The position numbers and the translations under genes were made by a program. This document shows, one piece after another, positions 7,131 through 64,000 of a DNA stretch of 64,000 nucleotides (positions are counted from its first letter, which is position 1; every line of letters begins with the position of its first letter). Under the pieces are notes generated by a model. The model searched no databases, was not told where the DNA came from, and saw only the letters and a list, made by a program, of their open reading frames with translations. The DNA comes from an uncultured Bacteroidales bacterium. GTDB taxonomy: Bacteria > Bacteroidota > Bacteroidia > Bacteroidales > F082. The stretch lies in assembly GCA_900317055.1 (NCBI GenBank), contig ONFF01000028.1, positions 1-64,000 on the forward strand, given 5' to 3'.

Positions 7131-8648
7131 CTAACCTAAAACCTTAACGCCGGCGTCAATGCGCTTCAAGGTCTCTTCCTTGCCCAAAAGCTCGAGGATT
7201 TCGCCGATGTGCGGGCCCTTGCCGGCACCCACCACCATCAGACGCAAGCCATTCATTACCAGACCCATATTCAACTCATTGGAGGTAATCCAATTGTTCA
7301 AGGTCTCGTCAATGTTGGCCAAAGTAAAGGGTTCGATGCCCTTGATGACTTCCTTCACCTTGAGCATGGTCTCGGCAGAGTTCTCTTTCCAGCGTTTCTT
7401 TACGGTCACGGGGTCGTATTCCGTTGGAGCCTCGAAGAAGAAGAAACTCTGGTCCCAGATTTCCTTCACGAAGTTGACTCTATCTTTCACCAAGCCAGCG
7501 ACTTTCACAGCGAAATCGAGCGGAACATCGAGGTTCTTTTCGTCCTTCAGCCAAGCCTGATAGTCCTTACCGACTTCTTCGTTCGACTTGCGCATGAGCC
7601 ACTCGTGGTTGAACCACTTGGTTTTTTCCACATTGAACTTGGCGCCGCTCTTGCTGCAACGCTCGAGCGAGAAAGCCTGAATGAGCTCTTCCATGGTGAA
7701 GATTTCCTGTTCAGTGCCAGGATTCCAACCCAACAAAGCCAGCATGTTGATGAAGGCCTCTGGATAATAGCCAGACTGCTTGTAACCCATGGCCGTGTCG
7801 CCAGTTTTCGGGTCGACCCAATACATCGGGAAGACAGGGAAGCCAAGGCGATCACCGTCACGCTTGCTCAGCTTGCCGTTGCCATCGGGTTTAAGCAACA
7901 GGGGCAGATGGGCAAATTGGGGTGCTTCCCAGCCAAAAGCCTCATAAAGCATGACATGGAGCGGCATCGAAGGCAGCCATTCCTCACCACGAATGACATG
8001 GCTGATCTGCATCAGGTGGTCATCGACAATGTTGGCCAAATGGTAGGTCGGCATGCCGTCGCTTTTGAACAAGACCTTGTCGTCGAGGGTGTTGGTCTGC
8101 ACATGCACCTCACCACGAATCAGGTCGTGCATCACGATTTCACGATCTTCAGGAATCATGAAACGCACGGTGTAAGGTGTACCATCAGCAATCAGTTTGT
8201 CGACTTCTTCCTTGCTCATCGTTAAGCTGTTGCGCAAGTGCTTGCGGCTTTGGCAATTGTAGATGAAGGTCTGCTTGTTGGCTTCGGCTTCCTTGCGGTA
8301 TTTGTCCAACTCCTCGGCAGTGTCGAAGGCAATGTAGGCACAGCCTTTTTCCAACAACTCGTCGCTGTATTGTTTATAAAGGTGTTTGCGGTTGCTCTGC
8401 TTGTAGGGACCGAACTCGCCGCCCACATAGTCGCTCTCATCGAACTTGATGCCGCACCAGTCCAAGGACTCCACGATATATTGCTCGGCACCTGGCACGA
8501 AACGGGTTTGGTCGGTGTCCTCGATACGGAGGATCATCTTGCCGCCATTCTTTTTGGCGAACAAATAGTTATATAATGCTGTGCGCACACCCCCGATGTG
8601 CAAGGGACCCGTCGGGCTGGGGGCAAATCTTACTCTGACTTCTTTCAT
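7131..8648 (-). CDS. gltX: Glutamate--tRNA ligase
   Basis: Class I aminoacyl-tRNA synthetase charging tRNA-Glu. The HIGH-type signature is [13 protein letters not shown] near the N-terminus and the KMSKS-type signature is KLSKRDG (about residue 260); the rest follows the bacterial GluRS layout with a C-terminal anticodon-binding domain. The length (505 aa) is normal. An in-frame TTG 12 bases upstream exists, but ATG at 8648 gives the canonical [14 protein letters not shown] start and lies downstream of a -7 box at 8669-8678. glnS is also present in this window, so Gln-tRNA is probably made directly. Confidence 0.96.
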
Positions 8649-8668
8649 ATTGGATTTCAAATTGAGGG

Positions 8669-8678
8669 TGCAAAAATA
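8669..8678 (-). promoter_or_regulatory. -7 promoter box for gltX
   Basis: Minus-strand TATTTTTGCA, 20 nt before the preferred ATG at 8648; it supports that start over the upstream TTG. Confidence 0.6.
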
Positions 8679-8682
8679 ATCA

Positions 8683-8712
8683 ATTCAAAGATTCAAGATT
8701 CAAAGATTCAAT
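8683..8712. repeat. ATTCAAAG word repeat between divergent genes
   Basis: Four near-copies of attcaaag/attcaag in a row. A similar tract occurs at 16993-17025. Confidence 0.6.
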
Positions 8713-8720
8713 ATTATTCC

Positions 8721-8730
8721 TAATTTTGCA
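8721..8730 (+). promoter_or_regulatory. -7 promoter box for the RlmL-like methyltransferase
   Basis: TAATTTTGCA, 36 nt before ATG 8767. It argues for that ATG rather than the TTG at 8737, which would lie at about the transcription start. Confidence 0.6.
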
Positions 8731-8766
8731 AAAAAATTGAACCCATATTTCGACAAGCTCAACAAC

Positions 8767-9942
8767 ATGGAAGACAACTACCAACTCATCACCAAGACTG
8801 CAGCCGGACTTGAGGAAGTGCTGGCTCGGGAAATCAAAGCCCTTGGGGCGAAGAATGTGCGACCGATGCACCGCGCCGTGATTTGCGAAGGCAACAAAGA
8901 GCTGATGTACCGAATTAACTATGAGGTACGCACCGCCCTTAAGGTGCTGAAGCCCTTCAAGAACTTCTTCGCCAAGAATCCCGATGAACTTTATAAGAAA
9001 GTGAAGGAAATCAACTGGTGTGAACTGCTCCGCACCGACCAGACCTTCTGCGTCGATGCCGTGACGAGCGGGCGTTTCTTCACCCATTCGCAATATGCAG
9101 CCTTGACGGTAAAAGACGCCATAGTTGACCTGTTCCGTGATGTGTATGGTATTAGACCCAGTATCAACACTTTGAACCCCGACCTGCGCATCAGCCTGCA
9201 CATCCGCGAGGACAAGGTAACCATCCTCTTCGACAGCTCGGGCGAGTCATTGCATCATCGCGGCTACCGCAAGCAGGTCGACAAGGCACCGATGAACGAG
9301 GTGTTGGCCGCAGGTCTCATCCAGCTCACGGGGTGGAAGGCCGACTGCAACTTCCTGGACTGCATGTGCGGCTCAGGCACCTTGCCCATCGAGGCGGCTA
9401 TGTATGCCATGAAAATTCCGCCGGGCTATTACCGCAAGCAGTGGGGCTTCATGAAATGGGACGACTACGATGCTGAGCTTTGGCAGCGCATCCGTCAGGA
9501 AGCCGACGACAAAATCTGCGATTTCGAATATGAGATTTGGGCCTCCGACCGCTCGCCCAAGGCCGTCGCCATTGCTGAGGGTAACCTTAACTATGCCCAC
9601 TTGCAGCACGACATCCAGCTGATGAAGAAAGACATGCACGACCTCACTCCACCCGAAGGCGGCGGAATTATGGTCATCAACCCACCCTACGGCGACCGTT
9701 TGGAAGAAGACAACATCGACCAACTCTATGAGGAAATCGGCCACACGCTAAAGCACAATTTCCAAGGCTTCCAATGCTGGCTCATCACCGACGATGCGGT
9801 GGCTTTGCGCCATGTAGGACTGAAGCCCACGGCCAAGATTCCCGTCTGGAACGGACCTTTGGAGTGTCGCTTTGTGAGGTTCGATATTTTTGAAGGGTCG
9901 TTGAAAGATAAGAAGGCGAGGGAGGCAGAAGAAAACAATTAA
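8767..9942 (+). CDS. THUMP-domain class I RNA methyltransferase (RlmL N-domain / YpsC type)
   Basis: The N-terminus (MEDNYQLITKTAAGLEEVLARE) and the following ~150 residues match the ferredoxin-like plus THUMP module that binds RNA. The catalytic half has SAM motif I FLDCMCGSGTLP (about residue 197) and the N2-guanine/adenine-type motif NPPYGDR (about residue 303). The family methylates 23S rRNA guanines (RlmL m2G2445 in E. coli); the exact target here is inferred. The protein lacks the second RlmK domain of the E. coli fusion, as is usual in Bacteroidota. It overlaps the convergent pth gene by 4 bp. Confidence 0.87.
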   Translation: MEDNYQLITKTAAGLEEVLAREIKALGAKNVRPMHRAVICEGNKELMYRINYEVRTALKVLKPFKNFFAKNPDELYKKVKEINWCELLRTDQTFCVDAVTSGRFFTHSQYAALTVKDAIVDLFRDVYGIRPSINTLNPDLRISLHIREDKVTILFDSSGESLHHRGYRKQVDKAPMNEVLAAGLIQLTGWKADCNFLDCMCGSGTLPIEAAMYAMKIPPGYYRKQWGFMKWDDYDAELWQRIRQEADDKICDFEYEIWASDRSPKAVAIAEGNLNYAHLQHDIQLMKKDMHDLTPPEGGGIMVINPPYGDRLEEDNIDQLYEEIGHTLKHNFQGFQCWLITDDAVALRHVGLKPTAKIPVWNGPLECRFVRFDIFEGSLKDKKAREAEENN

Positions 9943-11375: not shown

Positions 11376-12311
11376 TTATTTGAATAACGAACTGATGGAT
11401 TCATACGATTCCACGCGGTGGATGACATCGGCAAACAGCGCAGCCGTGCTCACCACATTGATCTTCTTGGATGCATTGGCGGGCAACGGGATGGAATCGG
11501 TAACCACCACCTCGCTGAACACAGAATTGTCCAAACGCTCCATGGCGGGACCGCTGCACACGGCGTGGGTGGCAAAGGCACGGACGCTCTTGGCGCCGTT
11601 GTCCATCAAAACCTGACCAGCCTTGACAATGGTGCCAGCCGTGTCGATGATGTCATCAACGAGGATGACATTCTTGTCCTTCACATCACCAATAAGCGTC
11701 ATGCTATCCACCACATTGGCGCGCGAGCGTTGCTTGTGACAGATGGCGAGATCGCAACCCAAACGTTTGGCGTAAGCCGAAGCACGCTTCGAGCCGCCCA
11801 CATCGGGCGAAGCCATCATCAAGTCCTCGATTTGCATCTTTTGGATGTAGTCAATAAAGAGGCTTGAAGCATAAAGGGCATCCACAGGGATGTCGAAGAA
11901 GCCCTGGATTTGGTCGGCATGCAGGTCGAGGGTGATGATTCGGTTCACACCGGCGGCGGTCAGCAGATTGGCCACCAACTTCGAGCCGATGCTCACACGC
12001 GGTTGGTCCTTACGATCCTGACGAGCCCATCCGAAATAAGGAATCACAGCGATAATCTTGTGAGCCGAGGCACGCTTGGCCGCGTCAATCATCAACAGGA
12101 GTTCCATAAGGTTATCAGTGGAGGGCATGGTAGACTGCACGATGAACACGTGATGGCCACGGATGCTCTCTTCGTATGAAGGCTGGAATTCGCCATCGGA
12201 GAAAACGACGACTTGTGACTTACCCAATTCAGTGCCATATGCTTCGGCAATCTTGGTGCCTAATTCCTTTGTGGCCCTACCGGCGAAAATGGAAACAAAT
12301 CTTCCTGACAT
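11376..12311 (-). CDS. prs: Ribose-phosphate pyrophosphokinase
   Basis: Makes PRPP from ribose 5-phosphate and ATP for nucleotide, His and Trp synthesis. The start MSGRFVSIFAGRATKELGTKIAE is the usual one. The PRPP-binding loop DDIIDTAGT (about residues 219-227) and the flexible-loop region YFGWARQDRKDQPR are both visible. The length (311 aa) fits class I PRPP synthetases. A -7 box lies at 12353-12362. A dispersed palindrome follows its 3' end. Confidence 0.95.
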   Translation of the reverse strand: MSGRFVSIFAGRATKELGTKIAEAYGTELGKSQVVVFSDGEFQPSYEESIRGHHVFIVQSTMPSTDNLMELLLMIDAAKRASAHKIIAVIPYFGWARQDRKDQPRVSIGSKLVANLLTAAGVNRIITLDLHADQIQGFFDIPVDALYASSLFIDYIQKMQIEDLMMASPDVGGSKRASAYAKRLGCDLAICHKQRSRANVVDSMTLIGDVKDKNVILVDDIIDTAGTIVKAGQVLMDNGAKSVRAFATHAVCSGPAMERLDNSVFSEVVVTDSIPLPANASKKINVVSTAALFADVIHRVESYESISSLFK

Positions 12312-12352
12312 TTTTGAAGGATATTATGTTGATTTAACTCCGTTTTTCGGGC

Positions 12353-12362
12353 TGCAAAATTA
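12353..12362 (-). promoter_or_regulatory. -7 promoter box for prs
   Basis: Minus-strand TAATTTTGCA, about 40 nt before the prs ATG. Confidence 0.55.
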
Positions 12363-12436
12363 GGGATTTTATTCGAGCCAACAAGGCAAAAAATAGTTTT
12401 TTTTCTCAAGTTGCTTGCTGTGAATAAAATTTTCTG

Positions 12437-12446
12437 TATTTTTGCA
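12437..12446 (+). promoter_or_regulatory. -7 promoter box for tRNA-Leu
   Basis: TATTTTTGCA with a TTG-rich -33 region (12411-12417), about 27 nt before the tRNA. Confidence 0.6.
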
Positions 12447-12472
12447 GCCGCGTTTGACGCGATGAAGCACAT

Positions 12473-12556
12473 GCCGAAGTGGCGGAATCGGTAGACGCGT
12501 CGGTCTCAAAAACCGATGAGGTAACACTCGTGCCGGTTCGATCCCGGCCTTCGGTA
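12473..12556 (+). tRNA. tRNA-Leu (anticodon CAA)
   Basis: A class II tRNA with long variable arm. Acceptor arms GCCGAAG / CTTCGGT, anticodon stem TCGGT/ACCGA with loop CTCAAAA (anticodon CAA, reads UUG), and T-arm GGTTCGATCC. The CCA end is not encoded. It has its own promoter and terminator. Confidence 0.95.
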
Positions 12557-12562
12557 CTACGA

Positions 12563-12590
12563 AAAACAGCCTCGAGTTCGAGGCTGTTTT
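12563..12590 (+). terminator. Terminator of tRNA-Leu
   Basis: A 13-bp perfect stem (AAAACAGCCTCGA and its complement) with a 2-nt loop, followed by GTTTTTG. Confidence 0.85.
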
Positions 12591-12655
12591 GTTTTTGAAA
12601 TAGCCCGCCTATGTCATTCCCTCGGGAATCTATAGGCGGGCTATTCCATAAGAAA

Positions 12656-14500
12656 TCACTCCACAGTAACCGACTTGGCGAGGTTGCGTGGTTGGTCGAC
12701 ATTGCAGCCCCGCATCACGGCGATGTGATAGGCCAAAATCTGCAAGGGCACCGTCGCCAATAAAGGTGAATAGAGGCATTCCGTCTCAGGAATCTCAATG
12801 ACATAGTCGGCCATCTTGCGCGCCAACACATCATTCTCACTAATGATGGCGATAATCTTCCCGTCACGGGCTTTCACCTCTTGGATATTGCTCAACACTT
12901 TTTCGTATGTGCTATGGTTGGTGGCAATAAAGACCACAGGCATATCCTTGTCGATCAAAGCGATGGGGCCATGCTTCATCTCAGCGGCTGGATAACCCTC
13001 AGCATGGATATAAGAGATTTCCTTCAGCTTCAAGGCACCCTCAAGAGCTACAGGATAGTTCTGCAGACGACCGAGATACAGCATGTTATGCACATCTTTG
13101 TATTTCTCAGCTATCTCTTTCACATGGCCGCTGTGGTCGAGCGTCCATTGGATCTTTTCAGGAATGCGGTCAAGTTCTTGGATGAATTCAAGGCGTTCCT
13201 CGTCTTTCATTGAGCCTTTCAACTCCGCCAGACGCAAGGCCAACATAGCCATTACCGTCACTTGCGAGGTGAAAGCCTTAGTGGAAGCCACACCGATTTC
13301 CGGACCAGCATGGGTGTAAATACCCGCATCCGTGGCTCTCGAAATGGAAGAGCCGATGACATTGCAGATACCCAAAACGATGGCACCTTTTTCTTTCGCC
13401 AACTGGATGGCTGCCAAGGTATCGGCAGTCTCGCCCGACTGCGACACCGCGATTACCACATCATGCGGCGTGACCACAGGATCGCGGTAACGGAACTCCG
13501 AGGCATACTCTACTTTTACACGAATTTTGGCCAGCTTTTCAATGAGATAACTGCCCACAAGACTGGCATGCCATGAAGTGCCGCAAGCCACAAAGACGAT
13601 ATTGTCGGCATACAGCAATTGTTTCTCATACTGAGCGATGCCACCAAGACGCACCGTGTTGGCCTCGGGATGCAGACGGCCACGCATAGTGTCGCGCACG
13701 ATGGTGGGCTGCTCGTAGATTTCCTTCATCATGAAATGGTCGAAGCCAGCCTTTTCGATGCTGTCGAGGTTCATCTTCAATTCCTGGACATAAGGCATGG
13801 CCTCCACATCCTGTATCGTCTTGATGTGCAGTTCCTCACCCAACTTGATTCTCACAACCTGCTCATCTTCAAGGTATACCACCTTTTGCGTACGACCCAC
13901 GATAGGCGTGGCATCCGAGGCAATGAAATACTCGCCCTCACCAATGCCGATGACCATAGGACTTCCCTTTCGGGCAGCAATCAGCTGATCAGGATGGTCT
14001 TTTTCCACGATGACGATAGCGTAGGCTCCCACCACATGGTTCAAGGCGATACGCACGGCCTCAAACAAATCCACATGCTCGCTGAGCTGTACATCTTCGA
14101 TGAGGTTAGTCAGTACTTCGGTGTCGGTCGACGACTTGAATGTGAAGCCACGCTTTTCCAATTCCTTGCGAAGGCTCAGATAGTTTTCGATGATGCCATT
14201 GTGAATCAGGGCAATGTTGCCCGATTGTGAGCGATGGGGGTGCGCGTTCACCTCATTAGGCTCACCATGGGTAGCCCAACGGGTATGAGCGATACCAATG
14301 TGCCCGCTGACATCCTTAGAAGAAGCGAAGGCCTCCAAGTCGGAGACCTTGCCTTTAGTTTTGTAGACATTCAGTTCGTTTGCCTCGTTGAGCAGTGCCA
14401 CACCGGCGCTGTCGTAGCCACGATATTCGAGGCGTTTCAAGCCCTCAATGAGGATAGGATAGGCCTCTTGTTGGCCCACATAAGCTACTATTCCACACAT
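12656..14500 (-). CDS. glmS: Glutamine--fructose-6-phosphate aminotransferase (isomerizing)
   Basis: First step of UDP-GlcNAc synthesis. The N-terminal nucleophile Cys follows Met (MCGIVAYVG), the glutaminase domain has GIAHTRWATHG and LIHNGIIENY, and the C-terminal half has two SIS domains (ACGTSWHASLVG; SQSGETADT; PRNLAKSVTVE at the end). The length (614 aa) is normal. A -7 box lies 20 nt upstream. No glmS ribozyme-like leader is possible in the short 5' region. Confidence 0.97.
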   Translation of the reverse strand: MCGIVAYVGQQEAYPILIEGLKRLEYRGYDSAGVALLNEANELNVYKTKGKVSDLEAFASSKDVSGHIGIAHTRWATHGEPNEVNAHPHRSQSGNIALIHNGIIENYLSLRKELEKRGFTFKSSTDTEVLTNLIEDVQLSEHVDLFEAVRIALNHVVGAYAIVIVEKDHPDQLIAARKGSPMVIGIGEGEYFIASDATPIVGRTQKVVYLEDEQVVRIKLGEELHIKTIQDVEAMPYVQELKMNLDSIEKAGFDHFMMKEIYEQPTIVRDTMRGRLHPEANTVRLGGIAQYEKQLLYADNIVFVACGTSWHASLVGSYLIEKLAKIRVKVEYASEFRYRDPVVTPHDVVIAVSQSGETADTLAAIQLAKEKGAIVLGICNVIGSSISRATDAGIYTHAGPEIGVASTKAFTSQVTVMAMLALRLAELKGSMKDEERLEFIQELDRIPEKIQWTLDHSGHVKEIAEKYKDVHNMLYLGRLQNYPVALEGALKLKEISYIHAEGYPAAEMKHGPIALIDKDMPVVFIATNHSTYEKVLSNIQEVKARDGKIIAIISENDVLARKMADYVIEIPETECLYSPLLATVPLQILAYHIAVMRGCNVDQPRNLAKSVTVE

Positions 14501-23416: not shown

Positions 23417-23535
23417 CATCCCGTAGGGATGTTCGTTCGGTAAAAGCATAACAAAAGAGCCACCTGCATCCCGTAGGGATGTTCGTTCGGTAAAAGCATA
23501 ACAAAAGAGCCACCTGCATCCCGTAGGGATGTTCC
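23417..23535 (+). repeat. REP-like palindromes in a 50-bp tandem array upstream of the RAYT gene
   Basis: CATCCC-GTA-GGGATG hairpins occur at 23417-23431, 23467-23481 and 23517-23531, period exactly 50 bp. The first two are followed by TTCGTTCGGTAAAA and an identical spacer. This is the layout expected of REP elements served by the adjacent Y1 transposase. Confidence 0.85.
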
Positions 23536-58657: not shown

Positions 58658-59668
58658 TTATTCCAAAAGGCTCTCAAGGTCTTTCAAGGCCTTGCGGGCA
58701 GACATGCCCTGATGCAGCACTTGGTAGGTTTTCTCGGCAATGGGGAGCTGTCGGCGTTGTTCCTCAGGAAGGAATGGTAACAAGGCGGAAGAATAATAAC
58801 CTTCGGCCACCATAGTCATCTCGTTGAGGGCAGTCTTTACCGTGTTGCCACGACCAATCAACACACCCAGCTGGCGGTTGCGACTGTGGCTGGAATAACA
58901 TGACACCAACAAGTCGCCAAAGAAATTGGAGGGATTGAACTTGGTGAGGTCGTTGACGCTCTGCGGGGCGAGCAAGAAATACATTTCCTTGATGCAGTTT
59001 GAGACCAATACAGCGATGAAATTGTCGCCATAGCCCAAACCCATCGCCATACCTACCATCACGGAATAAATGTTTTTCAGTACTGAGGAATGCTCCAAAT
59101 AGTGCATGTCTCTCAGACAGTTGACCTTTATGAAAGGCGTCTTCAGTTTTTCACCCACAACGCGGGCATTGCCTATGTTGGAACATGCGAAAGTCATATA
59201 GGTAAGCCTTCCATGGCCCACCTCCTCAGCATGAGTGGGACCGCTAATGCAGCATAACTGCGCATCCGTTAAACCATAGTTTTGTTTCAGATAATCCGTA
59301 ACAAACTGATTTTCTTCGGGAATGATGCCCTTGATGGCAGAAACCACCATCTTGTCTTGCAAAGGGGTTTTCAAATCGGAGAGATAACACTTCAGATAAG
59401 GTGCAGGCGTCACCAAAAAGATGATGTCGGCCTTGTCGACAGTTTCATTCACATCGTCGGTAAGATGGATGCGGCTCATGTCGAACTCAACATCGGAGAG
59501 ATAACGACAGTTGCGGCCTTCGGTGCGCAACGATTCAAGCACTTCCTGATTGCGGACATACCAGCACACCGACGACTCATTCATAATCAACACTTTGGTG
59601 ATGGCTGTAGCCCAACTGCCGTGTCCGATGACGGCGCAACGCGATGTCTTTTGTATCAGGGGACCCAT
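58658..59668 (-). CDS. gpsA: Glycerol-3-phosphate dehydrogenase [NAD(P)+]
   Basis: Makes sn-glycerol 3-phosphate for glycerolipids. The nucleotide fold is CAVIGHGSWATAITKVL, then VSAIKGI, SGPTHAEEV, and the C-terminal helical core GLGYGDNF ... HSRNRQLGVLIGRG. The length (336 aa) is normal; the first ~8 residues may be slightly over-long. It lies 18 bp after the BtrH-like gene on the same strand, so the two are probably co-transcribed. Confidence 0.94.
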   Translation of the reverse strand: MGPLIQKTSRCAVIGHGSWATAITKVLIMNESSVCWYVRNQEVLESLRTEGRNCRYLSDVEFDMSRIHLTDDVNETVDKADIIFLVTPAPYLKCYLSDLKTPLQDKMVVSAIKGIIPEENQFVTDYLKQNYGLTDAQLCCISGPTHAEEVGHGRLTYMTFACSNIGNARVVGEKLKTPFIKVNCLRDMHYLEHSSVLKNIYSVMVGMAMGLGYGDNFIAVLVSNCIKEMYFLLAPQSVNDLTKFNPSNFFGDLLVSCYSSHSRNRQLGVLIGRGNTVKTALNEMTMVAEGYYSSALLPFLPEEQRRQLPIAEKTYQVLHQGMSARKALKDLESLLE

Positions 59669-59686: not shown

Positions 59687-60736
59687 TTATGCATACTTTA
59701 GTGCCGAACTGGACTTGAGAAACTCCGAATCGATTCGGGTGAAAATCTCTTTCTCCTGCTGCCCGATGGTCTCCAAAATGTCAGCCATCTCGTTCAAGGT
59801 CACATTTTCGCTTTTCATATAGCGACGGCAATCCAAGGAGAATTGGCGCCAGGTGTCGGCATCCTTGTTCATCAATGTCGAACAGTCATCAAGTACCTCA
59901 TTTTGGAACACTGTAGCGGCTTCTTTCAAAAAGTCGGAATAGATGTAACGGTAACCGGCGCCACCTGTTCCCGCCGTTTCAATCAGCCTATAAAACCATA
60001 GCAGGATATATCCTCTCAATTCATCTGAAAAATAAGCCTTCCATCGCTTCAGGTTCTTGGCAAAACGATGCAAGCCCGTATATCCGTAATAAGAAAGAGG
60101 CATCCGCAACATACGGTAGCACGACTCCTCCAATCCCTGCACAATGGCCGGTTTCAGGTCGACTTTCTCGGTAAAATCAGTCGATGGCGGGTCAAGATAG
60201 AACATACGTCCTTCGGGAGCTGCCAGACCTTTGGCAAAACGAATCTTGCGCATAGTCTCTTCATCGATGTAGACATAGTCGTCGGTATATAGGCGACTGT
60301 CGGAATCAGCGATGGTATAGTTAGAACCCTCTTTGCCGATAACCGTCAACACATGGCCATTGAAATGCGACTCATTGACAATTTTCCCGAAATAAGTCAA
60401 GCCGCTCACGCTGACCACCACCCCGACTGGAATTTTTTTCTCCACCAGTTCATCGAGATCGCGCATCGATTTGTTCACTTTGCAACCATATCTCATGCCA
60501 TGATAGCCAATATGCATCCTTTCGGCAAAATTCTTCACAATGCAAGCAGGCTTGATGCGAAGCATGGGTAAAACGACACCGCGCATCCGCAAAAAAGGCG
60601 AATAAAGAAAATAAATACCCGAACCTATACCAAAAGCCATAGGCTCACTGATCTGATATCCGTAATATTCCAACATATTCAGAAAAGTGCCTGTCTCACA
60701 ATGCTTTCTTCTCGGATTGGGATAGCTTTCTATCAT
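59687..60736 (-). CDS. BtrH N-terminal domain protein (DUF4872-type), possible acyl transfer enzyme
   Basis: The conserved N-terminus is HCETGTFLNMLEYYGYQISEP (Cys about 14), then GIGSGIYFLY and LRMRGVVLPMLRIKP, the pattern of BtrH_N proteins with a C39-like papain fold; GHVLTVIG and YTIADSDS follow. A helical C-terminal part fits DUF4872. In butirosin synthesis BtrH moves an acyl group from a carrier protein to the aminoglycoside. Here gpsA is downstream and an acyl ligase is divergent, so an acyl transfer to a small or lipid substrate is plausible but unproven. Start MIESYPNPRRK is downstream of a -7 box. Confidence 0.7.
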   Translation of the reverse strand: MIESYPNPRRKHCETGTFLNMLEYYGYQISEPMAFGIGSGIYFLYSPFLRMRGVVLPMLRIKPACIVKNFAERMHIGYHGMRYGCKVNKSMRDLDELVEKKIPVGVVVSVSGLTYFGKIVNESHFNGHVLTVIGKEGSNYTIADSDSRLYTDDYVYIDEETMRKIRFAKGLAAPEGRMFYLDPPSTDFTEKVDLKPAIVQGLEESCYRMLRMPLSYYGYTGLHRFAKNLKRWKAYFSDELRGYILLWFYRLIETAGTGGAGYRYIYSDFLKEAATVFQNEVLDDCSTLMNKDADTWRQFSLDCRRYMKSENVTLNEMADILETIGQQEKEIFTRIDSEFLKSSSALKYA

Positions 60737-60766
60737 CGTGTTTTTTTGACTTTGGAAAATAATGCG

Positions 60767-60776
60767 TGCAAAAATA
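60767..60776 (-). promoter_or_regulatory. -7 box for the BtrH-like/gpsA unit
   Basis: Minus-strand TATTTTTGCA, about 31 nt before ATG 60736; it excludes the longer open frame. Confidence 0.6.
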
Positions 60777-60856
60777 CGACTTTTTCTTTTTATGACTCCA
60801 CTTGCCAGTATTTTCCAACGAAACACGCTCTTTTCTAAATTTTTATGAAGTTTTTG

Positions 60857-60904: not shown

Positions 60905-62500
60905 ATGGAAGAAACCTTAGGTCTATACGAAACATTCAAGGAAGCTGCAAAAAAGTATTCCGATAAGGTTGCCTTGAGTTATTTTAAGACGGATACGAGG
61001 TTTAGAGTTTTATTGGAACGCGTCGACATAACAGCCTTGGCTTTCAGGAAACATGGGGTGAAAAAAGGCGATATCATCTGTCTTGCATTGCCTTCGATGC
61101 CCGAGTCGTTGATGTGTTTCCTGGCACTGAACAAAATCGGTGCCATCCCCTGCATGATCGATGTCAGATACACACCTGAAGAATACTGCAAAATCATCGA
61201 CAGGACACAATCGAAGATGCTCTTTGTCATGGGGCTTTATGCAGCCAACTTGGCCACTGTGGATGCCCAACTCAATGTGGAGAAAGTCGTGGTATGTTCA
61301 GGTGCCGATTCCATTCCTGGGATTTCTTTCTGGTTCAGCCTAGGCGAAAGGTTCAATGGTAGAAGAAAGGTGTTTCGCAAACACAAGAAATTCTGCCACT
61401 GGAAAGACTTCTACAACACAGCGCAAGGCAAAGACGAAACCGAGCCTTACCATTGGTTGCCCGACGAGATGGCCGCCTTGTTCCAGACCTCTGGCACAAC
61501 CGGTACGGTGAAAAGTGTAATGCTCTCCACCGAAAATATCATGCACTCCGTGTTTCCCAACCCGCCCGTGCTCAACAACCTTTCAAGCAACGACACTGCA
61601 CTATGCATCTTGCCTATTTTCGCTTTCTTCGGGGCGAATACTTTGTTGCTGCCTTTATTCAATGGCTTGCGGGTTATTGTCATCCCCATTGCACCACGGA
61701 AAGAATTCTTGAAACTGCTGACCCAATATAAACCTCAGCATGTCTTCTCGGTGCCAGCCTATTGGGATTTCGTCAACGAGGAAAAAGTGGTCAAGGAAGA
61801 CTTCTCCTACTTGAAATCCATCAATGTGGCGGGTGACATCTTGAACACCGCTTTTGAGAAGCGCATCAACGAGTGTCTGCACCAAGGTGGGTGCCGCTAC
61901 GACCTCACGAAAGCCTACGGTATGACCGAAACGGCAGGTGTCATTTCATTTACTCCTCAAGGCAGCGAGAAACAATATGTACAAGGCTTTTCTGGTAAAC
62001 CTGTGACATGTTACGAGGTCAAGACCTTTGACGATGAGATTTGCGTGAACTCGGAGATGAAGTTCCTCGGTTACTATAAAAACGAAGAAGCCACACAACA
62101 ACTTATCCAAACCCACGCTGACGGCAGAAAATGGCTACACACGGGCGATATGGGCTATGTGGACAAGGAAGGCAATATTTTCGTGATCGGCCGCAAAAAG
62201 CGCATGATTGTCCGTCACGACGGCTCCAAGGTCTTTCCCGTAGAGATTGAGGACTGCTTAATGCACCATCCCTTAGTGGCGGCTTGTGCTGTGGTGCCCA
62301 TGCAAGACCCCGACCATTCGGAGAGCCATTTGCCCAAGGCATTTTTGGTGCTGAAGGATTCCGACACCCAGACCACCATAAAAGAACTGATGGCCTACTG
62401 TGAGGCGAACTTACCAGTTCACCTCGTTCCAGCGGCCATCGAGTTGATTGATGCCTTGCCGATGAAATGCCTTGCCGATGAACGGCAACGGAAAGGTTGA
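60905..62500 (+). pseudogene. AMP-forming acyl-CoA/acyl-ACP ligase with a frameshifted C-terminus
   Basis: ANL-superfamily adenylation enzyme. A3 FQTSGTTGTVKSV (about 197-209), A5 KAYGMTETAG, A7 WLHTGDMGYVD and A8 GRKKRMIVRHDGSKVFPVEIE are intact. The A10 lysine motif is missing: at 62451-62482 the 16-mer ATGCCTTGCCGATGAA occurs twice in tandem. Removing one copy restores the family-typical ending LPMNGNGKVDYQKLIRN with stop at 62523-62525; as it stands the reading ends KCLADERQRKG. It may be dead for acyl adenylation, switchable by slippage, or an assembly error. It is divergent from the BtrH-like gene. Confidence 0.85.
62451..62482 (+). repeat. 16-bp perfect tandem duplication causing a frameshift
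   Basis: ATGCCTTGCCGATGAA at 62451-62466 and 62467-62482. Sixteen bases shift the frame by one and remove the ligase A10 motif. Confidence 0.95.
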
Positions 62501-62514
62501 TTACCAAAAACTGA

Positions 62515-63078
62515 TCAGAAATTGACACTAAAGGTCATGCCCACACCCAGATTGGCTTGATCAGGCATAGTGTTGCAACGCATGACTGATGGCGAGAGGT
62601 TGAACGAAACCGATTTGCTGTTGTTGTATTCGTTAGCCACCCAGTTCATACGACCCTTGCCTATGCTCGAGAAAACAATCCACAACGGAAGGCTGACATC
62701 GGCAGCAATGGCTGGGATATAGCCCAAATATACCAAATCCATATTATCGGTGGCAGCACCAGTTACCATAATAGCAGCAGCGGCAGCAGCCGTTCCGATA
62801 AAGACACCCATGAAAACATTTCCCGTTGTGATTTGCTTTTGCGCACCGAGATAAGTCTCAAAGTTTTGTGAACCGACAAGTTGCTTGACTTCCGCATCCG
62901 AAAGTTGGCGACCGTCGAGGGTTAGATGTCTGCCATCACGTTCCATGTGACCGCCCGCCAGAGTAGATAGCGTCAGTTGGTTGGACACATTGATGGTTTC
63001 CGTTTCATTGTAGTTGCATTGTGCAAACATGGAGATACCTGCCAAGACAAGCATCATCGATAAGAATAACTTCTTCAT
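62515..63078 (-). CDS. Small secreted protein, function unknown
   Basis: A signal peptide ends SMFAQ. Two hydrophobic Ala/Gly-rich segments in the middle (GVFIGTAAAAAAIMVTGAA; GYIPAIAADVSLPLWIVFSS) and a beta-like C-terminus (ANLGVGMTFSVNF) suggest an envelope protein. Proteins with a DGRxLSDAEVKQLVG segment are frequent in Bacteroidales and uncharacterised. It starts 18 bp after the acyltransferase gene and is probably in one unit with it. The unshifted ligase stop would overlap its 3' end. Confidence 0.65.
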   Translation of the reverse strand: MKKLFLSMMLVLAGISMFAQCNYNETETINVSNQLTLSTLAGGHMERDGRHLTLDGRQLSDAEVKQLVGSQNFETYLGAQKQITTGNVFMGVFIGTAAAAAAIMVTGAATDNMDLVYLGYIPAIAADVSLPLWIVFSSIGKGRMNWVANEYNNSKSVSFNLSPSVMRCNTMPDQANLGVGMTFSVNF

Positions 63079-63096
63079 AATTATTAGTGTTTTAAG

Positions 63097-64000
63097 TTAA
63101 TATTGTGATTTCACATTCACCGGATTGGCATAAATCCCTAAGAAAATCTCCTCCAATTCCGAACGGTCAAAATCAAGATAGTCGTTCATCCAATCCATAT
63201 ATTTGATGAACATTGCTTTTTGCTCCTTGGTATAATGATCAGCATAGGCATCACTGCCGCTCCGTAGGTCATGGGCAATATAATTGTTCGGGTGGAGATA
63301 GAAATGCGGATTGATGCGGCTGTCCATCAGCTCGGCCACACGCTTGTAGAACTCGCCCGAAGGACAGTCATTCAAAGCAATCAGATCATCTTCAGTAACC
63401 TGAGGACAAATGTGGAAATGCACATGACCCTTAGGCTGCATGATGCCAGTCAAGATACTGTTAAGATCTTCGCCTGGTTTCTTTTCGTAATGGCCGTTTT
63501 TCTTGGTCATGTACAACTCCAAGGTCTTCAATTTGTCGCATGACTCCCATTCGTAGGACACCGCTACAGGTACAATATTGAGCTCGGCCAACGAGATCAC
63601 CCTGTCGTCGCGGCGGCTCATGCCGAACATCTTGATGATGGCAGGGTCGGTAGCATCGATGCCGTTTTTGGTGCGACCATTGCGCTGCGCAATCCACACC
63701 GACTCATGCACTTCGGTAATGACATGACGCATATATTCCGACATATGCATCATGCTGTTGTAGAACTCTTTGGGCGAACCTCCGCGCTCTGTGCGGAACA
63801 TCTTGTTGACCTTACCGAAGTCGATGACAAAAGGATGCGACATCAGGTTGCTGCCGAAAGTGATTTGGCAGGTGTTTTGTCCAGCTTTAGTCAGTATATA
63901 TTGCAAGAACATAGCATCGAGCACAATGTCGCGGTGATTGGAAACGAAAAGATAGGGTTTCTTCTCCTCAATGTTTTCCAAACCCGCCCAATCGAACTGC
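63097..64000 (-). CDS. PlsC-like acyltransferase, 5' end outside the window
   Basis: The N-terminal part seen has SNHRDIVLDAMFL, a variant of the NHxxxxD acyltransferase motif (one extra residue between His and Asp), then FGSNLMSHPF, and VWIAQRNGRTKNG, the substrate-loop region of lysophosphatidate-type acyltransferases. The frame stays open (QFDWAGLENIEE) to the window edge, so the start lies upstream. It probably acylates a glycerolipid; the exact acceptor is not shown. gpsA and an acyl ligase are nearby. Confidence 0.7.
   Translation of the reverse strand, partial: QFDWAGLENIEEKKPYLFVSNHRDIVLDAMFLQYILTKAGQNTCQITFGSNLMSHPFVIDFGKVNKMFRTERGGSPKEFYNSMMHMSEYMRHVITEVHESVWIAQRNGRTKNGIDATDPAIIKMFGMSRRDDRVISLAELNIVPVAVSYEWESCDKLKTLELYMTKKNGHYEKKPGEDLNSILTGIMQPKGHVHFHICPQVTEDDLIALNDCPSGEFYKRVAELMDSRINPHFYLHPNNYIAHDLRSGSDAYADHYTKEQKAMFIKYMDWMNDYLDFDRSELEEIFLGIYANPVNVKSQY

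Follow-up and report, generated by a model that had tools for sequence, protein, structure and literature searches.

A 16-bp tandem duplication, private to one Bacteroidales assembly, in the last codons of an AMP-forming acyl ligase gene

The window, the whole 64-kb stretch of DNA that was analysed, comes from what is probably a gut Bacteroidales bacterium and contains near its 3′ end a gene for an AMP-forming acyl ligase whose last codons hold a short tandem repeat (Table 1). The ligase carries both PF00501 (1e-55) and PF13193 (1.4e-12), that is, the N-terminal AMP-binding domain and the small C-terminal domain by which members of the ANL superfamily are recognised. Its start at 60905 (ATG) was picked from that of its relatives, an upstream ATG at 60845 also being possible. 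From 60905, the open reading frame runs to a stop codon at 62498–62500 and ends in LPMKCLADERQRKG.

Table 1. Genes and sequence features around the duplication, in window coordinates
Feature	Coordinates	Strand	Basis or remark
Glycerol-3-phosphate dehydrogenase-like neighbour	58658..59668	-	Pfam PF07479 and PF01210
BtrH/DarH-like acyltransferase, divergent neighbour	59687..60826	-	Pfam BtrH_N and DUF4872; DarH model 255.5 bits, below the cut-off of 300
AMP-forming acyl ligase (ANL superfamily), current reading, 531 aa, ends LPMKCLADERQRKG	60905..62500	+	Pfam AMP-binding 1e-55, AMP-binding_C 1.4e-12; identity to relatives up to 95%
First copy of the 16-bp unit ATGCCTTGCCGATGAA	62451..62466	+	Sequence inspection
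Second 16-bp copy, exact, abutting the first	62467..62482	+	Unit ATGCCTTGCCGATGAA matched only here genome-wide
Out-of-frame remainder, reads ALPMNGNGKVDYQKLIRN and stop, holds the A10 Gly-Lys	62469..62525	+	Translation; all 12 other genomes have a like ending in frame
Small inverted repeat TTGCCG-ATGAA-CGGCAA	62472..62488	+	6-bp arms, 5-base loop; 3′ arm directly abuts the second copy
Uncharacterised gene, convergent with the ligase, overlaps the out-of-frame remainder	62515..63078	-	Relatives carry two allele types
Acyltransferase (PF01553), still open where the window ends	63097..63999	-	Pfam

Beyond the terminal acyltransferase, just outside the window, lies FlxY (G000:C3:64227–65501), which scores about 702 bits against NF053551 (cut-off 520) and is the only gene in the genome that this model matches at E 0.001 (five candidates scored). 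According to the available part of PMC3992019, FlxY acts in flexirubin biosynthesis as its 4-coumarate-CoA ligase. The damaged ligase is a different gene, as it has no match to NF053551, for which more than 520 bits is required. The flexirubin-type genes are split over two contigs, with FlxY on C3 and FlxA (843.9 bits, cut-off 700), FlxB (408.1, cut-off 340), FlxJ (595.0, cut-off 560) and ketosynthases on C8. There, the stretch G000:C8:70000–86030 (L088) makes up the core of a flexirubin-type pathway, with the FlxA, FlxB and FlxJ homologues and several ketosynthases. With a FlxA tyrosine ammonia-lyase, FlxY and ketosynthases, the genome has the genes expected of a flexirubin-type pigment locus. 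Some named relatives of this genome were obtained from the abomasum of goat and yak. All nine relatives compared have the DarH-like neighbour, and the idea that it always travels as a pair with the ligase was rejected on the evidence of G023 and G100, where the ligase directly adjoins the dehydrogenase (the stretch from G007 is too short to reach the dehydrogenase).

Two exact, abutting copies of the unit ATGCCTTGCCGATGAA occupy 62451–62482. The earlier note had described two perfect 16-bp copies in tandem at the 3′ end of the ligase, and the sequence at the positions of both copies (Table 1) agrees with this description without error. The duplication shifts the ligase frame ~35 bases ahead of its stop. 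One base on in the frame, from 62469 to a stop at 62523–62525, the DNA reads ALPMNGNGKVDYQKLIRN, and the conserved GKVDYQKL ending of the ligase is kept only in this other frame. The A10 motif with its catalytic Gly-Lys is absent from the current product and present in one-copy relatives. The gene belongs to the ANL superfamily by descent, as judged from relatives that are up to 95% identical, with a predicted product that lacks A10.

The repeat is specific to this site, as the unit has two exact matches in the 3,525,557-base assembly, both within the array; a repeat used elsewhere in the genome was rejected for want of any further match. A chance origin was also rejected. Among 60 order-2 Markov sequences of 64 kb each, scanned for units of 10–60 bp, there were nine exact arrays with a unit of at least 10 bp, one with at least 12 bp and none with at least 14 bp. 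The 16-bp array is therefore a real duplication in the assembly. A wider background was taken from 281,674 bases of the same genome, a non-random sample made up of the window and 12 stretches, which cover what remains of C3 and the opening 20 kb of contigs (one stretch is a complete 3-kb contig), and this sample contains 12 exact tandem arrays with units of 10–200 bp. Judged from the flanking ORFs, the 16-bp array is the only one of the 12 that clearly interrupts the interior of a gene of a recognised family; nine are found between or at the ends of ORFs, and two (L068:19220 and L071:445) are of ambiguous coding state. Two longer repeats are also present in the window: a 50-bp unit repeated 2.4 times at 100% identity between two ORFs (23417–23534), which contains the palindrome CATCCC-GTA-GGGATG, and a 109-bp unit repeated three times with 93% matches (446–771).

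Relatives were compared in two overlapping sets, the genus genomes (G numbers) and the loci L033–L041. A close homologue of the ligase (66–95% identity) is found in 12 other genomes of the genus, one of which, G007, has a partial gene that includes the end. The 40% homologue in G070, ~65 kb from the FlxY of that genome, was left out of the 12. All 12 have a single copy of the unit, exact in seven and as variants in five, and the ending NGKVDYxKL followed by one or three residues. Two copies occur in none of them, in a comparison between species with one genome each, and the duplication is private to one genome among those compared. The ending KCLADERQRKG, named in the earlier note as the observation that would count against a lesion, is seen in none of the 12 homologues, and the possibility that it is normal for the family was rejected. 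The expectation that removal of one copy brings back the family-typical ending with its A10 lysine was borne out, as the like ending stands in frame in all 12 one-copy relatives.

In alignments with PDB entries for 4-coumarate-CoA ligase and luciferases (four among those listed), the Gly-Lys pair of the relatives falls on the A10 Gly-Lys. The available parts of PMC8388817 and PMC11255334, a review and a structural paper, describe the A10 lysine as an essential or key residue of the adenylation step; when this residue is mutated in luciferase and PrpE, the first half-reaction is reduced and the second is hardly affected. Since the residues lost here include this lysine, loss of ligase function is likely. 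The frameshift replaces the 14 terminal residues of the relatives with 11 unrelated ones, the A10 Gly-Lys being among those lost. We propose that it most likely abolishes adenylation and that the rest of the ligase could still fold. The claim that the catalytic C terminus is knocked out is, as a deduction from sequence, well supported by the 12 NGKVDYxKL endings and the alignment with solved ANL enzymes. A close paralogue that might replace the ligase does not appear among the ten best matches listed for its own genome, the next best being at E 1.9e-15 and 28% identity.

The gene might nevertheless not be broken, if the altered ending were functional or were rescued by recoding. The foreign residues are the last 11 only and the body of the ligase is constrained (see below), as could suit a working product, but the A10 Gly-Lys is gone and no homologue among the 12 shares the ending. 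Rescue would need a +1 shift before 62492. The codons from 62450 to 62491 hold no stop and, to our knowledge, no +1 shift site, and from these codons recoding was judged unlikely. We find a working product very hard to credit.

The distribution of the ligase suggests how such a loss could be borne. FlxY is present in 43 of 99 genus genomes, the present one counted. With a threshold of E 1e-60, the ligase is detected in 14 of the 99 (including the present genome and the 40% homologue in G070), and each of these 14 is also one of the 43 (Fisher p = 2e-6, ignoring shared descent). In the 12 other genomes with a close homologue, the ligase sits 1.1–2.0 kb from FlxY. The remaining 29 of the 43 FlxY-bearing genomes have no ligase at E 1e-60, where many genomes are incomplete and some absences may be gaps. 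In three of the five genomes fetched around FlxY (G066, G097 and G094), the dehydrogenase and the gene that follows the ligase adjoin with the ligase absent, the FlxY of G094 being on another contig than this pair. The stretch from G060, also among the five, breaks off within the gene for the acyltransferase. In G070, with its distant ligase homologue elsewhere, none of the queried genes lies within about 7 kb after the acyltransferase. Because 29 of 43 FlxY genomes lack the ligase and the flanking genes abut in three, the ligase is regarded as an accessory gene whose absence is tolerated. Its accessory status to the flexirubin-type locus in the genus may help to find its role.

Over its body, the ligase seems to be under constraint. 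Comparison with the two nearest relatives gives a dS of 0.27–0.28 and a dN/dS of 0.086–0.089; six pairs of relatives have slightly lower dN/dS values, 0.053–0.073. At sites fixed in eight relatives, the window has six synonymous and seven non-synonymous private changes; the corresponding ratios in three relatives are 6:5, 3:2 and 6:2. Any relaxation of constraint would therefore be slight at most. It may have preceded the duplication, which would then have arisen later in an already idle gene. The remainder 3′ of the duplication still differs very little from the one found in relatives of the same allele type, and together with the dN/dS of 0.086–0.089 this indicates little decay since the duplication. 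Either the lesion is young, or the ligase gene is not truly broken in cells. Decay of the locus as a whole is unsupported: 12 of 14 other genes are at least 90% identical in at least one compared locus (the acyltransferase being compared to the window's edge only), though these genes were drawn from ORFs already open here, so that their openness proves little. The remaining two are a FabZ-like gene at 84–85% identity and DUFb, with distant matches only.

A gene that still works is also what one would expect if contig ends overlapping by 16 bp had been joined end to end, the organism itself having one copy and an intact gene. Blunt joining of this kind would yield exactly the doubled sequence. 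An assembly error would thus give a sequence identical to that of a private mutation, and both a fresh mutation and an assembly error fit what is seen. In addition to the low dN/dS and the unaltered remainder, the confinement of the duplication to one assembly and its junction, which lacks microhomology, are in accordance with an assembly or scaffolding artefact. Further, the nine close named relatives all come from uncultured material (seven are titled MAG), and neighbouring genes match in split pieces in two of the nine, L033 and L034. The start of the DarH-like gene is affected in both, and in L033 so are the acyltransferase and radical SAM genes. Within L033 (RUG11691), the acyltransferase and radical SAM genes each lie in two pieces (8193–9064 and 11899–13241), which suggests frame breaks or assembly errors in that relative. 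On the other hand, the 32-bp array is shorter than one short read; a single read spans such an array, and ordinary assembly should resolve it correctly. Moreover, in the 281,674 bases sampled, no other exact tandem with a unit of at least 10 bp was seen to break a gene of a recognised family (two of the 12 arrays being ambiguous), and hence there is no sign of a systematic assembly fault. On balance, we consider an artefact unlikely, albeit an explanation that deserves weight.

As to how a true duplication would have formed, the flanking bases differ across the junction and microhomology is absent, so that simple slippage is no obvious cause. The small inverted repeat is also predicted to form a hairpin in the one-copy relatives L040 and L006, and we can speculate that this hairpin could promote polymerase pausing. 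A second candidate lies just downstream. Across L033–L041, two allele types are seen over 62505–63150. The transition to them is abrupt and falls at the 3′ end of the ligase, where its last residues change alongside (KKLIKD or QKLIRN). The convergent gene, which has no Pfam or NCBIfam match at 0.001, is 25–31% identical in L033–L037 and 91–97% identical in L038–L040, with no entry for L041; these differences represent two allele types and not a break in the present genome. The allele boundary is ~20–70 bases downstream of the array (about 62505–62550). The duplication may have been made there, but this boundary is shared with one-copy relatives. The allele type of the present genome is common to the one-copy genomes L038–L040, and the boundary is therefore older than the duplication. 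Conceivably, the array might also be the footprint of an insertion element that has since excised, with a target duplication of 16 bp.

Directly adjacent exact repeats can revert by slippage, and the array here could lose one copy in this way. In theory, it could act as a reversible on/off switch, with ligase-on and ligase-off cells coexisting as the repeat gains or loses a copy. The short hairpin touches the duplication junction, and reversible inactivation has precedents in the tandem duplications of fission yeast (PMC13207564) and the indels of Mycobacterium tuberculosis (PMC8339072), as far as the available parts of these sources go. None of the 12 other gene-bearing genomes has two copies (one genome per species), which is not the copy-number variation expected of a phase-variable repeat, and there are two copies only, at a place where the protein code dictates the sequence and where relatives have no repeat tract. 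A contrast is provided by a 14-bp tandem repeat of CATTCAGCATTCCT around the stop codon of the B12-binding radical SAM gene, an example of real copy-number variation in the locus. This repeat is found in the present genome (L065:2818–2845 in G000:C3, just past the window) and at L036:11968 and is longer in L039 (11938–12016); no exact tandem of this unit was seen in the remaining seven of the nine relatives. The switch suggested in the earlier note thus finds no support, given two copies in a single genome, no variation among 12 and a junction without microhomology, and we regard it as improbable. That a live slippage switch toggles an accessory ligase of the flexirubin-type locus in a gut population, altering lipid or pigment, seems more improbable still. 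If both states did exist in one population, a bacterium with uncultured close relatives would offer a simple example of a pigment or lipid gene that is silenced reversibly.

Overall, we think it probable that the array is a true private duplication, recent, present in the lineage or in part of the population, and situated at the 3′ end of an accessory ligase from which it most likely removes adenylation. The cell would tolerate this loss because the ligase lies outside the core pigment pathway.

Frame-breaking short tandem duplications are ordinary spontaneous mutations in bacterial genes. The present case resembles them in that one exact duplicate abuts the original, shifts the frame and is private to one genome; it differs in that its ends lack microhomology and in being known from an assembly alone. 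Our search of the literature on reversible short tandem duplications turned up no like bacterial case that we recognised among the matches listed, which does not exclude one in print. From what the available parts report, the tandem duplications of fission yeast (PMC13207564) and the frameshift scars of M. tuberculosis (PMC8339072) are alike in that they silence a gene through a small duplication or indel, a change that could in principle be undone. Those changes are reported as reversible or recurring in populations, whereas ours is known from one assembly, and the fission yeast duplications are marked by microhomology, unlike the 16-bp junction. Compared with the flxA–flxY locus of Chitinophaga pinensis, as described in part of PMC3992019, the present genome likewise has FlxA, FlxB, FlxJ and FlxY above the NCBIfam cut-offs, but the damaged ligase is distinct from FlxY, and 29 of the 43 FlxY-bearing genomes of the genus lack it. 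Set beside these systems, the duplication is an ordinary event in an accessory gene, and it serves as a caution that a single private 16-bp duplication may make a gene appear lost in an assembly.
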